Shown here piece by piece: positions 7,341 through 13,699 of a stretch of DNA of 42,978 nucleotides. Location of the stretch: contig DAHXKX010000037.1 in NCBI GenBank assembly GCA_027366165.1, positions 1 through 42,978 of the forward strand. Reading direction: 5' to 3'. The DNA comes from Actinomycetota bacterium (GTDB lineage: Bacteria; Actinomycetota; Acidimicrobiia; Acidimicrobiales; Acidimicrobiaceae). Both the position numbers and the translations under genes were made by a program. The notes under the pieces are model-generated. The model ran no database searches, was not told the origin of the DNA, and saw only the letters and a program-made list of their open reading frames with translations. Every line of letters begins with the position of its first letter. The first letter of the stretch is position 1.

Positions 7341-8810
7341 ATGAGTTACGTCGGCCTTGACATAGGCACAACATCGGTTAGAGCCATCGCCTTTGAGGTT
7401 GACGGCACCATACTGGCCACCTCGTCACGAGATCTCACCACCCTGCATCCCGGCCAAGGACGGGTCGAACAGGATCCAAATGAAATTGCGATTCACTCCA
7501 TCGGGGTGTTGCATGACCTTGCCATGAATCTTGACCAGTCCCCACGGTCGATCGGAATAGCCAACCAGCGCGAAACCGTCATCGCATGGGAAAACAAAAC
7601 ACTTAAACCGTTGGCCATGGCGATCTCCTGGCAGGATCGTCTAAGTGCGTCACTCTGCGAAGAATTGAAGCTCTCCGGAAACGAAGAGCTAATCAGGCAG
7701 ACAACCGGGCTGACGCTCGACCCCTACTTTTCAGCGACAAAATATGCCCGCCTGGTCTCGGAACTTGGGAAATCCCCGCCCAAGGGGACTCAGTTGGGAA
7801 CGGTAGACAGCTGGCTCTTGGCAAATCTCACCTCCAACAAGCAGTCACTTACTGACCTCACCAACGCCTCTCGAACATCTCTGCTGAATATCAGTTCCAA
7901 CAAATATGACGAGCAACTCGGTGAGCTTTTCGGTGTGCCTCTGGACCTGCTGCCTGTGCCGCTATCATCGAATGCCATGTTCGGTGAAATCACCCACCCC
8001 AGCTTGCAGCCTTGGCTCGGAGTGCCGATTCATGCGGTACTGGGAGACCAACAGGCCTCTCTTTTCGGCCAGGGTTGTATAGCCATCGGCGACACCAAAG
8101 CAACCATGGGAACCGGGACATTCCTTCTCACCAACTCCGGTACCAAAAGACCTGAACCACAAACCGGCCTGATTACCTCAATTGCCTGGAACCTGGGCGG
8201 AACTGAAAACACTTTTTGCCTTGAAGGCTCGATCTTCACAACCGCCTCCCTACTGGAGTGGCTCATTGAAGTCATCGGCATTGCTTCCAACATCGAAGCA
8301 CTCCAAGAGTTGGCAAAATCCGTCCGGACCTCAGAACAGGTGACAATCCTTCCATTTTTCACCGGGACTGGGTCACCGTGGTGGGGCAACGACACCGCGG
8401 CAGTTCTGGCTGGATTGGATTCCTCGAGTTCAAAGGGCCAAATAGCCCGAGCAGCTTTCGAATCGATTGCACTTCAAACTGCCAATATAACCGAAGAGAT
8501 CAGCAACCAGCTTGGCAGCCAAATCAGTTCTTTAAAGTTAGACGGAGGCCTTTCTAACCTTGACTTCCTATGCCAGCTGATTGCTGATCAGACAAATCTC
8601 GAGTGCCATGCCTCCAATTTGGCTGAGTCAACGGCGTTTGGCGCGGCGATGATGTCGGCGGTGGGCATGGGAGACATTCAACCCGAGAGCCTTCGAAGCG
8701 GCTACAGTGCGCGCCAGACATTCACTCCCTCCGCAAGTAGAATCAGCGCAAAGTCAAGGGAGAAGCGTTGGACCGCCTATCTCAACAAGCTCGGACTAGA
8801 CGGGAAATAA
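7341..8810 (+). CDS. glpK: Glycerol kinase
   Basis: This 489-residue FGGY kinase phosphorylates glycerol to sn-glycerol 3-phosphate with ATP. The N-terminal phosphate loop is LDIGTTSVRAI. All glycerol-contact positions known from E. coli GlpK are present: R77 and E78 (NQRET), W97 (WQDR), Y129 (DPYFSATK) and D236-Q237 (GDQQAS). The family signature TDLTNASRTSLLNI and the C-terminal ATP-site LDGGLSNLDFL are also intact. No strong ribosome binding site precedes ATG 7341. The last 15 bases overlap the convergent ACT-domain gene. A glycerol facilitator or glycerol-3-phosphate dehydrogenase gene is not in the window. Compare the second FGGY kinase at 20056. Confidence 0.92.
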   Translation: MSYVGLDIGTTSVRAIAFEVDGTILATSSRDLTTLHPGQGRVEQDPNEIAIHSIGVLHDLAMNLDQSPRSIGIANQRETVIAWENKTLKPLAMAISWQDRLSASLCEELKLSGNEELIRQTTGLTLDPYFSATKYARLVSELGKSPPKGTQLGTVDSWLLANLTSNKQSLTDLTNASRTSLLNISSNKYDEQLGELFGVPLDLLPVPLSSNAMFGEITHPSLQPWLGVPIHAVLGDQQASLFGQGCIAIGDTKATMGTGTFLLTNSGTKRPEPQTGLITSIAWNLGGTENTFCLEGSIFTTASLLEWLIEVIGIASNIEALQELAKSVRTSEQVTILPFFTGTGSPWWGNDTAAVLAGLDSSSSKGQIARAAFESIALQTANITEEISNQLGSQISSLKLDGGLSNLDFLCQLIADQTNLECHASNLAESTAFGAAMMSAVGMGDIQPESLRSGYSARQTFTPSASRISAKSREKRWTAYLNKLGLDGK

Positions 8811-9811: not shown

Positions 9812-11029
9812 TCAAAGTTTCGGAAGTGCCCGCTTCAGGTTTCGAACAGCCTGATGAATTCTCTGCTCGTTCTCAATCAAGGCGAAGCGGACAAATCCTT
9901 CTCCACCCGGCCCAAAACCAACGCCCGGTGAAACAGCGACCTGGGCCTCGGAAACCAAGAACTTCGCAAATTCAAGCGATGTCATATCCTGGTATGGCTC
10001 AGGAATCTCGCCCCAAACGAACATCGTTCCGCGCGGCTTCTCGATTTGCCATCCGATACGGTTGAGACCCTCACAAAGGACATCCCTGCGCGACTGGTAT
10101 ATACCGTTTACCAAAGGAGGATAGGAGTCAGCTTCATTCAAGGTGACGGTTGCAGCTATCTGAATTGGCTGGAAAGTGCCATAGTCGAGGTAGCTCTTCA
10201 GTTTTATGAGCGCCCCAACGACATCTTTGTTACCTACCATAAACGCAGACCGCCACCCGGCCATCGAATAAGACTTTGTCAGGGTATAGAGCTCCACCGC
10301 AACTTCTTTGGCTCCGGGAACTTGTAAAACCGAAGGAGGTCTGTACCCGTCAAATGCCGTATCCGAATATGCAAAGTCATGCACCACAATGACCTCACGT
10401 TCGCGTGCAAACTCCACGATCTTGGTCATCCAGTCCAAGTCGACGCTAGTCGTAGTGGGATTGTGGGGAAATGAAATGACAATTACCCGTGGCCGTGGCC
10501 ACGACGACTCAAACGCCTCAACCAGGTTCGACAAGAACTCTTCCGGATTGCCTCTTCTGGGTGCCTCCCCAACAGCTTCAGTCCTTGCCACCGGACCGAG
10601 TCGGACCTGCCTCACCTCTGCACCTGCGAACAGCGGCCCCCAAATATGGATTGGATAGGAAGGAGATGGCACGAGCGCCACATCTCCAGGCCCGACCAAC
10701 ACCCACATCAAGTGTGAAAAACCCTCTTTAGCCCCGATGGTCGAGACGACTTCTGTCTCGGGATCCAACTCGACACCGAATTTTCGCATATACATATCAG
10801 CAACGGCTTTACGAAGATTTGGTAGGCCCTTGCTCGAGGAATAACGATGGTTACGTGGATTTCTGGCGGCTTCTACAAGCTTCTCGACGGCTATCTCTGG
10901 GGAGGGAATATCGGGGTTCCCAAATCCGAGGTCAATTACGTCTTTTCCACCTCTTCTTTCCTGCGCCTTAAGTGAATCAATGACTCCAAAGACGTAGGGA
11001 GGCAGCCCAGTTATTCGTCGAAATTCCAT
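9812..11029 (-). CDS. Class I/II pyridoxal-phosphate aminotransferase, AlaC-like
   Basis: The product is a fold-type I aminotransferase, probably transferring amino groups between glutamate and pyruvate or a related oxo-acid. The start MEFRRITGLPPYVFGVID is typical of AlaC-like enzymes, so I prefer ATG 11029 over the longer frame to 11047. Seen motifs are IDLGFGNPDIPSP, YSSSKGLPNLR, PSPSYPIH, FPHNPTT, VVHDFAYSD, and the PLP lysine in YTLTKSYSMAGWR. The C-terminal substrate arginine is in FVRFALIEN. No neighbour fixes the pathway; the nearby ACT-domain gene hints at an amino-acid role. Confidence 0.88.
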   Translation of the reverse strand: MEFRRITGLPPYVFGVIDSLKAQERRGGKDVIDLGFGNPDIPSPEIAVEKLVEAARNPRNHRYSSSKGLPNLRKAVADMYMRKFGVELDPETEVVSTIGAKEGFSHLMWVLVGPGDVALVPSPSYPIHIWGPLFAGAEVRQVRLGPVARTEAVGEAPRRGNPEEFLSNLVEAFESSWPRPRVIVISFPHNPTTTSVDLDWMTKIVEFAREREVIVVHDFAYSDTAFDGYRPPSVLQVPGAKEVAVELYTLTKSYSMAGWRSAFMVGNKDVVGALIKLKSYLDYGTFQPIQIAATVTLNEADSYPPLVNGIYQSRRDVLCEGLNRIGWQIEKPRGTMFVWGEIPEPYQDMTSLEFAKFLVSEAQVAVSPGVGFGPGGEGFVRFALIENEQRIHQAVRNLKRALPKL

Positions 11030-11133
11030 GACATTACCATAGTACACCCGAGTTGGTGATCACCTTAATCCCAAAGATAACTTGCTCCGACAGAACCAGC
11101 AGACTAAATCAGACTAACCGTCAGCATCACTGT

Positions 11134-11594
11134 TCACACCATCACTAAGCCACGGTCGACAAAGGTCGAGAAGTGATCCCACGCCTTCGGCAGCCTCTCG
11201 GCAATATCTATTGCAAGCGCGCCGGATAGCACCACTCTCCCCAGCACAATTGTTGCAATCTGGTTTGCCATTTCGGGCACTGAATTGACGGTCAGCTCCT
11301 CAACCAATCCTTCGAAGATGAACTTCACAACCCACTGGCTGAACACCCCCACGCCTGGAATGGCGCAATATCCCGTATCATCCAAACCGGGCCGTAGCGA
11401 GTTCGTCACCGGCATCGCCTCTTTGCCGCACAGGCAGGGCCTTCAACCCTTTCGATGCAAAGTTGGCCGACCTCGCCAGCAATTCCGGAAGGCCCGCATA
11501 CTATTCCGTGTGGACCATACAACGCGGCACCTAAAATGAGACGCGAATTGTGCGATTCAGACAGACCCTGCCAATCCGGGAAGGCCGATCCAAC
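11134..11594 (-). pseudogene. Decayed ROK-family glucokinase remnant
   Basis: Minus-strand frames here carry pieces of a ROK sugar kinase. One frame, open from about 11594 to the TGA at 11406-11408, reads FPDWQG, then GAALYGP and GIAGEVGQLCIERVEGPAC. This matches the ROK pattern GxAGExGH followed by the start of the cysteine zinc site, but the CxCGxxGC part is scrambled. A second frame (11134 to about 11440) continues with CLCGKEA and ends with LGRVVLSGALAIDIAERL, which fits the ROK C-terminal strand. The phosphate-binding N-terminus (DxGGTK) is not found. Frameshifts and missing parts make it non-functional. In Streptomyces, from memory, the ROK glucokinase gene glkA lies near SRPBCC and PimB-like genes, which is the context here. 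Confidence 0.6.
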
Positions 11595-11778
11595 TCAGTC
11601 GACTTTTGAGTTCGAGTATCAGAAGATGTCCGAGCCATACCGGGGATCACGAGTCGGAGAAGCTTCGCGAGTTATCGGAATTGCGCCGACTGAACAAACC
11701 TCGTGGCCTTCGTGAATGCATTACTTGATATTATTGTGCCCATATCTCACCCAGCTTGCCTGCCACCTAGGACGCCGT

Positions 11779-12270
11779 CTATTTTGGAACAGCAGACTTT
11801 GCACCCATCACCGACTCAACCCTTTCCTTCAAGTCTCTCAAGGCTGCATGAACTATACGAACCTCCGCCCGGCGCTTGACAAATCCCGGAATCGGCACGG
11901 CAAGCTCAACGGTCAATTCGTAAGTGACCTGGGTTTGGTTCAGATCATCTGATTCAAAAACATAGCTGCCATCGAGCTTTGAAGTTATGTCGCCGCCAAT
12001 TTGAACCCACGAGAGAACCTTTGGCGCCCCAGAGTAGTCGTATCTGAGCGTGTATGAAGTTGTGCGGCCAAACGCCCCGGCCCGAAAGGTGACTGCAGCC
12101 GGGCGGCCCTTGTCGTCTCGAGCTACGATTACCACTTCTTTGATATCCTGAGCCCAGGCAGGGTACTCCTCAAAGGAAGCCGCAACCGCATAGCATTGGT
12201 CTGGAGTAGCTCCAATTACCATCTTCTCACGAGCATTTTCCACAGCTCGAGTCCCTTCTGCCTCAGACAA
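11779..12270 (-). CDS. SRPBCC (START-like) superfamily protein
   Basis: This 163-residue protein has the polyketide-cyclase/dehydrase-like START fold, a hydrophobic-ligand cup. The opening AREKMVIGATPDQCYAVAASFEEYPAWAQDIKEV is the usual first strand, helix and W-bearing loop, and the end LKERVES is the long C-terminal helix. Its ligand is unknown. Such proteins are regularly found beside PimB-like glycosyltransferases and a ROK glucokinase in actinobacteria, and here it sits between the PimB-like gene and the glucokinase remnant. Confidence 0.85.
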   Translation of the reverse strand: MSEAEGTRAVENAREKMVIGATPDQCYAVAASFEEYPAWAQDIKEVVIVARDDKGRPAAVTFRAGAFGRTTSYTLRYDYSGAPKVLSWVQIGGDITSKLDGSYVFESDDLNQTQVTYELTVELAVPIPGFVKRRAEVRIVHAALRDLKERVESVMGAKSAVPK

Positions 12271-12346
12271 AACTCAATTAACCCTGTTTCCGGCAGTGCA
12301 AACCAGGAAACATTAAGCAGATTACCCTACACAAGGCCGACACCTG

Positions 12347-13507
12347 TCAGGAATTTGAATCGGTTCTTTCCCAGTTGATCGATGCCAGACACTTGCTCAA
12401 CTTCTCACTTAGGTGATTATATGAAAAATCATCCAAGGCCCTGCGCCTGCCGTTTGCCCCCATCTGCTCTCGAAGTTGGCCGTTGCTGATCAGCATTGAT
12501 ATAGCCTCGGCTGTCTTGCGCGGAGACTTCGGCTGGTAGACAACAAATCCAGTCTGCTCGTGGGTCACGGCTTCGGTTGAACCCCCGGAATAGCCTGCAA
12601 TAACGGGGACCCCACAAGAACTCGCCTCCAAGAACACAATGCCGAACCCCTCCTGCTCCAACCCAACCCACCGGCTACGGCACAACACCGCAAAAGCATC
12701 GCTGGCTCCCAAAAGATATGGAAGTTCATCTTCTGCAACCCTTCCGAACAGCTGCACGGAGGCGTGGCGTCTCCTAATGAGACGCCAAAGACGCCTCTCA
12801 TCGCGTCCAGCCCCGGCAATCACGACCTTCAACTCGGGATGGGCATCCTGAAGCAGACTCACCGCCCCGATAAGTGAATCCATACCTTTTCTTGGCACGA
12901 GTCTCGAAACAGACGATACGAGAAACTCGTCATCGCTGATACCAATAGACTTTCTGTATTTTTTGCGGACCTCGGAACCCAATGGCTGGAATCGAACCGG
13001 ATCCACACCCGGAGGAATTTCAAACACCTCGGGCAGATCCTTGTTTGCCCGCGCAAAAAGACGCTCCAATTCACCTCGCGGATATTGTCCAGCGGCGATG
13101 ATAAATCTCGCCTGAGATAAGACTTTTACAATCCAACCGGAAAGAACCGGCAACCTGGCTGGCACGGTCAGCTCAGCTCCATGGAGTATTACCCCGTACT
13201 GAATGCCCACTTTGGGCGCCAGCATGCCCACAGGTAGAGCCGGATCCCACACTACAAAGGAGGCATTTTGCTCTTCGGCGATCTCGCGGATTTTCCGTGC
13301 CAGGGAGGAGGTCGGCATGAACACTTTGTGAGGGAGGCGAATTATCTCAAAATCCTGTTGAACATCGAAGGCATCTGCATTGGGATGTGGGGTAGTAATA
13401 ACAACAAAGCTCTGCGGGTCAAGCCGTCGCCACAATTCATACAGGTAGTTCTGAATCCCACCCACCTTCGGCGGAAAGTCATTTGTAACTAATAGATGCT
13501 TGACCAT
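12347..13507 (-). CDS. GT4 glycosyltransferase, phosphatidylinositol mannosyltransferase PimB-like
   Basis: This GT-B fold enzyme (386 residues) is related to actinobacterial PimB, which adds mannose from GDP-mannose to phosphatidylinositol mannosides at the inner membrane face. Seen are the N-terminal LLVTNDFPPKVGGIQNYLYEL with the glycine-rich loop, HGAELTVPARLP, the hinge VSRLVPRKGMD, and the donor-site E-x7-E motif in EQEGFGIVFLEASSCG at about residues 285-296. I chose ATG 13507, which has GGAGAG a few bases upstream. Whether this organism makes PIMs or another mannolipid cannot be told. Confidence 0.85.
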   Translation of the reverse strand: MVKHLLVTNDFPPKVGGIQNYLYELWRRLDPQSFVVITTPHPNADAFDVQQDFEIIRLPHKVFMPTSSLARKIREIAEEQNASFVVWDPALPVGMLAPKVGIQYGVILHGAELTVPARLPVLSGWIVKVLSQARFIIAAGQYPRGELERLFARANKDLPEVFEIPPGVDPVRFQPLGSEVRKKYRKSIGISDDEFLVSSVSRLVPRKGMDSLIGAVSLLQDAHPELKVVIAGAGRDERRLWRLIRRRHASVQLFGRVAEDELPYLLGASDAFAVLCRSRWVGLEQEGFGIVFLEASSCGVPVIAGYSGGSTEAVTHEQTGFVVYQPKSPRKTAEAISMLISNGQLREQMGANGRRRALDDFSYNHLSEKLSKCLASINWERTDSNS

Positions 13508-13699
13508 CAACTCTCCAGGTCACCAGAAACGCTTTTGCATCAGCCTAAAACTCACTCCCCCTGTTAACCATCCGCCAACCGTCCAAAGGTTCCCGACTAA
13601 TTGCGAAGTCTCAGGATTTGTGACATAAAACCAGCGATGTTGGAACCAATCTGTGTACTCCAAAGTCAAATTGATACTGGCAAGACGTTGGCATTCGAA

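Follow-up and report, generated by a model that had tools for sequence, protein, structure and literature searches.

Decay of a ROK-family sugar kinase gene, and a conserved tail at its 3' end, at one locus in a genus of Acidimicrobiaceae

Genes of the locus and the kinase remnant

The window analysed here, meaning the whole stretch of 42,978 nucleotides of contig DAHXKX010000037.1 (assembly GCA_027366165.1; Acidimicrobiaceae, genome G000), carries a SRPBCC gene and an aminotransferase gene on the minus strand, and the slot between them is occupied by the remnant of a ROK kinase gene. The features of the locus, all on the minus strand, are:

9812-11029, class I/II aminotransferase gene (PF00155)
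11030-11047, conserved block 2, directly upstream of the aminotransferase ATG; putative -10 of a leaderless promoter
11066-11090, conserved block 1, the last codons of the dead kinase gene, at -61 to -37 from the aminotransferase ATG; putative cis-regulatory site
11068-11534, ROK kinase gene remnant (tblastn, frameshift-aware alignment, shuffle control)
11535-11781, 247 nt standing in place of the N-terminal half of the kinase of relatives; the first three bases are the SRPBCC stop codon
11779-12270, SRPBCC gene (polyketide cyclase/lipid transport; PF10604, PF03364), upstream of the slot
12347-13510, GT4 glycosyltransferase gene (PF00534), PimB-like according to a previous reading; no specific model passed

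That reading, made from the sequence only, had placed SRPBCC, PimB-like and TrpD-type genes around the slot, and all three neighbours were recovered as described. The best NCBIfam model for the aminotransferase was alanine transaminase, with a score below its cut-off, and its start is probably the ATG at 11029 rather than the listed GTG at 11047, six codons earlier, because in orthologues from outside the genus the first residue is the one that corresponds to 11029. Compared with the congeneric genome G003, the GT4 gene (12350-13510) was only 91% identical to its counterpart (L038), as against 98% for the SRPBCC gene and 99% for the aminotransferase gene.

Six-frame translation yielded GIAGEVGQLCIE on the minus strand, and more ROK-like fragments were spread over other frames. 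A tblastn search with the intact protein from the congener G001 returned two matches on the minus strand in different frames, 11415-11534 (57.5% over 40 aa, E = 9.9e-7) and 11068-11472 (33.8% over 139 aa, E = 2.9e-12). In a frameshift-aware protein-to-DNA alignment positions 11068-11534 corresponded to residues 135-294 of an intact 298-aa relative, i.e. its C-terminal half, with one frame jump, two in-frame stops and 66 identities in 160 columns relative to the copy of G007. The score of this alignment was 245, against a mean of 40.8 (sd 5.6, maximum 56) for dinucleotide shuffles (n = 60) and 31 for the opposite strand. The description of ROK pieces decayed and split over frames thus held, as did the ROK similarity expected from a frameshift-aware search; the interval first given for it, 11134-11594, does contain remnant, its low end falling 66 bases short and its high end reaching 60 bases too far. 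No trace of residues 1-134 was detected in the window by frameshift-aware alignment, and 11535-11781 showed no ROK similarity; the stretch preceding the remnant measures 247 nt here versus about 412 nt in the intact G007 locus.

The longest open frame of the region (93 aa, 11134-11415) gave on its own no Pfam match and a single weak, unrelated NCBIfam match (E = 0.039), so that the remnant would escape routine annotation and its assignment to the ROK family rests on the intact orthologue. The intact orthologues of G001 and G007 scored 168 and 163 bits on the PF00480 profile (gathering score 22.9) and contained DND, which we take to be the catalytic motif, as well as GxxGH and CxCGxxGC, presumably the zinc-type motif of ROK proteins. 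DND lies at residue 104 of the intact copies, within the vanished N-terminal half, and is gone from the window copy, in which Gln replaces the His of GEVGH and a frame change together with a 13-nt gap disrupts the Cys motif. With a disrupted frame, an intact orthologue at the same place and constraint lost, the window copy is, on sequence grounds, a pseudogene of the ROK family and not a working member, from which a working enzyme can evidently no longer be made.

States of the slot among relatives and age of the loss

An intact 298-aa ROK copy was found in the slot in the congeners G001 and G007. Over the nine genomes of the genus the gene was intact in two, decayed in place in four (G000, G003, G008 and G004), deleted in one and partly seen or unseen in two. 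The deletion, in G002, left 154 nt between the flanking genes, with the tail of the kinase kept. The locus of G005 is distributed over two contigs and only a tail was recognised, and in G006 the contig ends 41 nt after the SRPBCC gene; in G004 the slot is whole, though the aminotransferase gene is cut by a contig end. Frameshift-aware scores relative to the respective shuffle maximum were 154/67 (G003), 122/61 (G008), 70/53 (G005) and 58/53 (G004), the body of the G004 remnant being barely above chance and its assignment resting on position and tail.

Outside the genus, a ROK gene was linked to the SRPBCC gene, the aminotransferase gene or both in 13 of 14 genomes from other families of the order (G036-G049, the exception being G039) and in 7 of 13 from other genera of the family (G009-G021, excluding G012, G013, G014, G018, G019 and G020; among these six only G014 is a single contig). 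Linkage was defined as presence on the same contig within about 7 kb, and positions of the three genes were compared by hand, leaving out G022-G035. The view that the locus is conserved and that relatives carry the gene intact in this position was thereby borne out, both in the genus (G001 and G007) and through linked genes in other genera and families. We take it that SCO2126 of Streptomyces coelicolor stands in a similar neighbourhood.

The remnants of G000 and G003, which come from separate assemblies, share gaps relative to the intact copies, including one of 13 nt, indicating that the inactivation predates the split of the two. With the last 45 nt left out, their distance was 0.41 substitutions per site (0.39 when these are included), about equal to the dS of three flanking genes (0.362), while the last 45 nt alone gave 0.12. 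Eight small indels separate the two remnants, seven of which are not triplets, and over the 61 codons still in a common frame dN was 0.44 and dS 0.52 (ratio about 0.85). For the intact pair G001/G007 the kinase showed dN 0.165 and dS 1.23, and the flanking genes dN 0.035 and dS 1.05; the intact kinase is constrained, though not as strongly as its neighbours in these two genomes.

Flanking genes were used for the trees because rpoB could not be found in several genomes: as an independent marker, it was not found in G000 and G005 in one search or in G005, G007 and G008 in another. The tree genes all come from the same stretch of chromosome, and the trees share the history of the locus itself. 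The intact pair grouped with the decayed G008 with support of 62 (three-gene protein tree), 93 (DNA tree) and 100 (11-gene tree), which, if the gene was never regained, implies three losses on the three-gene protein tree and four on the DNA tree. Forcing all seven other genus genomes into one clade was 19.7 log units worse, with an AU p-value of 0.095, so a single loss was not rejected; rooting inside the genus is weak, with supports of 33 and 63 near the root of the 11-gene tree.

The conserved tail and the start of the aminotransferase gene

The last ~25 nt of the kinase gene were kept in all genomes with data (8/8), even in G002, where the rest is deleted. Conservation was measured in an alignment anchored at the aminotransferase start, using four lineages (G000, G008, G002 and G005) between which every pairwise synonymous distance is saturated or exceeds 4. 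Invariant columns made up 16/25 of block 1 and 17/18 of block 2, compared with 4/18 in the stretch between them, 8/100 further upstream and 4/83 of the fourfold sites in the first 187 aminotransferase codons. When G004 replaced G005 the counts were 17/25, 17/18, 4/18, 2/100 and 5/83 in the same order, and with all eight genomes 14/25, 16/18, 4/18, 0/100 and 2/79. Pairwise identity between saturated lineages was 0.83 in the tail versus 0.25-0.35 in the rest of the dead gene. Block 1 is confined to the genus as far as was checked, by eye, in four outgroup genomes.

Block 2 contains TATGGT (11036-11041), six bases before the ATG at 11029. A TANNNT ending 5-9 nt before the aminotransferase start was present in every genome with a true orthologue (28/28; eight of the genus and 20 from outside it), against a background elsewhere of 0.006 per position per genome; its spacing to the start was, for instance, 6 nt in G017 and 9 nt in G038. 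The 18 nt of this block are also part of an open frame that starts with GTG, and some of their conservation could come from coding constraint. A sigma-70 consensus scan of 10900-12400 returned two promoters, both away from the conserved blocks, a number close to that obtained in shuffles.

Block 1 is probably kept as cis-regulatory DNA, as a putative site for a regulator or an upstream promoter element. It could instead be nothing but a coding relic, given that the tail bases encode the C-terminus of the kinase in the intact relatives and that a C-terminal Gly-Ala pattern is common to ROK proteins. We regard this as rather doubtful: elsewhere in the dead gene similarity between saturated lineages is gone, the deletion in G002 spares the tail, and the variable columns of block 1 in the six decayed or deleted copies are spread evenly over the old codon positions (3/8, 3/9 and 4/8 for positions 1, 2 and 3), unlike what a coding relic would show. 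Going one step further, the 3' end of the kinase gene may be dual-use DNA, coding for the C-terminus and at the same time carrying a putative regulatory site of the next gene; as the kinase died, probably in several lineages independently, decay or deletion would have removed the remainder as far as the border of that site. We put the odds of this about even; if true, the dead gene would map a hidden control element in the manner of a natural deletion series.

Identity, loss and significance of the kinase

The lost gene had been called a glucokinase of the ROK type. Membership in the ROK family was upheld by the PF00480 scores of the intact orthologues; the glucokinase assignment was not, none of the 12 locus copies tested reaching the cut-off of TIGR00744 (ROK glucokinase, 260.35 bits). 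Scores were 191-228 bits in other families (six copies, out of 13 linked), 113-147 bits in three of the four copies tested from other genera of the family (seven linked; the fourth gave no family at 1e-30), and 122.5 and 113.9 bits in the intact copies of the genus, one of which did slightly better on the allose kinase model (116.0 vs 113.9 bits). For this locus "glucokinase" is a subfamily label only, and the product is a predicted ROK-family sugar kinase; the fall of the scores toward the genus suggests that selection was relaxed or changed before the loss.

A second ROK kinase is encoded in the window genome (G000:C137), with an open frame whose 5' end is cut by a contig end and with DND, GHIGH and the Cys motif. 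Each of the eight congeners yielded a ROK match of a common 837-nt length, and in a ROK tree C137 grouped with its counterparts of G001, G002 and G003, the three congeners for which orthology was tested, apart from all 20 locus copies. A further off-locus ROK kinase was observed in G008 (G008:C181; L045, 135-1004), sharing 27.5% identity with the G001 locus copy, and the window itself holds a FGGY kinase gene at 7341-8807 (plus strand) whose best model was glycerol kinase (426 bits, cut-off 590). The search for another glucokinase that the sequence-only reading had suggested thus produced a second ROK kinase. The other glucokinase family (PF02685) gave nothing above its cut-off in 20 genomes and a single weak match under it, in G009.

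Phosphofructokinase (PF00365) was absent from all 12 family genomes examined (G000-G011), including G001 and G007 with their intact locus copy, and was found in 7/8 genomes of other families of the order. A partial phosphoglucose isomerase (PGI) domain match was present in 8/9 genus genomes, within an open frame of, in most cases, close to 950 aa, which we presume may be a transaldolase-PGI fusion; in the window genome it lies at G000:C10:9683-10330, with counterparts in 7/8 congeners. To the extent tested, upper glycolysis is the same whatever the state of the locus kinase.

We propose that an ancestral ROK-family sugar kinase gene once stood between the SRPBCC gene and the aminotransferase gene. 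In the window lineage its inactivation came before the separation from the sister species G003, and decay under no detectable constraint followed. Other lineages of the genus also lost the kinase by decay or deletion, in separate events on the best tree. The loss was probably tolerated thanks to the remaining second ROK kinase and to a putative leaderless promoter of the aminotransferase gene's own, which would make that gene independent of readthrough from the dead one; the last ~25 nt would have been conserved as part of the upstream control region of the aminotransferase gene. We assign this reading a probability of roughly 0.85.

The sequence-only reading had taken the loss as a change in sugar use, in an organism that does not live on glucose. 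The locus kinase is indeed dead or deleted in 5/7 genus genomes whose slot was seen whole, and phosphofructokinase is lacking; since genomes with an intact kinase lack it just as much, the loss does not follow the state of glycolysis, and with the second ROK kinase retained and the PGI domain so widely present in the genus, this interpretation was not supported and appears improbable. An error of sequencing or assembly in an intact gene, conceivable in a fragmented draft genome of 144 contigs, was rejected on account of the same decay, with shared gaps, in the separately assembled sister G003; the N-terminal half is moreover missing and divergence is spread along the remnant, leaving such an error hardly credible. 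Somewhat less remote, and still very unlikely, is a functional role for the 93-aa frame as a shortened descendant of the kinase. The frame is open, and G003 has one of equal length (L032) that overlaps the same region, yet the two differ in sequence at their ends and the window frame has neither the catalytic DND nor any Pfam or relevant NCBIfam match; a functional fragment was rejected on the dN/dS of about 0.85 over the common-frame codons.

Under the preferred reading, of an ancestral kinase that died and decayed in place, the locus is a confirmed, fairly old pseudogene and a case of ordinary gene loss, the preserved tail being its one unusual touch. It offers a clean case in which one gene, at a single position within one genus, is seen intact, decayed and deleted; the graded states allow the loss to be dated relative to species splits, and the spared DNA points to the probable position of the next gene's control DNA. 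A further lesson is that a lost "glucokinase" should not be taken for lost sugar use when the genome retains another ROK kinase. Titles and abstract openings of the papers listed in literature searches contained nothing on glucokinase in Acidimicrobiaceae MAGs, on ROK glucokinase pseudogenes or on a dead gene combined with a leaderless promoter, which is no proof of absence in print.

ROK-family ATP glucokinases of Actinobacteria, as exemplified by GlkA (SCO2126) of Streptomyces coelicolor (PMC8115908), belong to the same family, PF00480, and among NCBIfam models TIGR00744 ranked first or second for the intact copies of the genus; these differ in scoring only 114-122 bits against a cut-off of 260, and the window copy is dead. 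Decaying bacterial pseudogenes, described by Kuo and Ochman as mostly young in Salmonella (PMC2916853), resemble the remnant in their neutral rate, several inactivating changes and syntenic place. The window remnant is older than most of theirs, predating a species split with a dS of 0.36, and here several states of the same gene occur within one genus. In leaderless genes of Actinobacteria a TANNNT about 12 nt before the start is a published hallmark (PMC3160421, PMC3898074), and the TANNNT of the aminotransferase gene likewise begins about 12 nt before the start codon; the difference is that in this genus a second conserved block lies upstream, inside the dead neighbouring gene.
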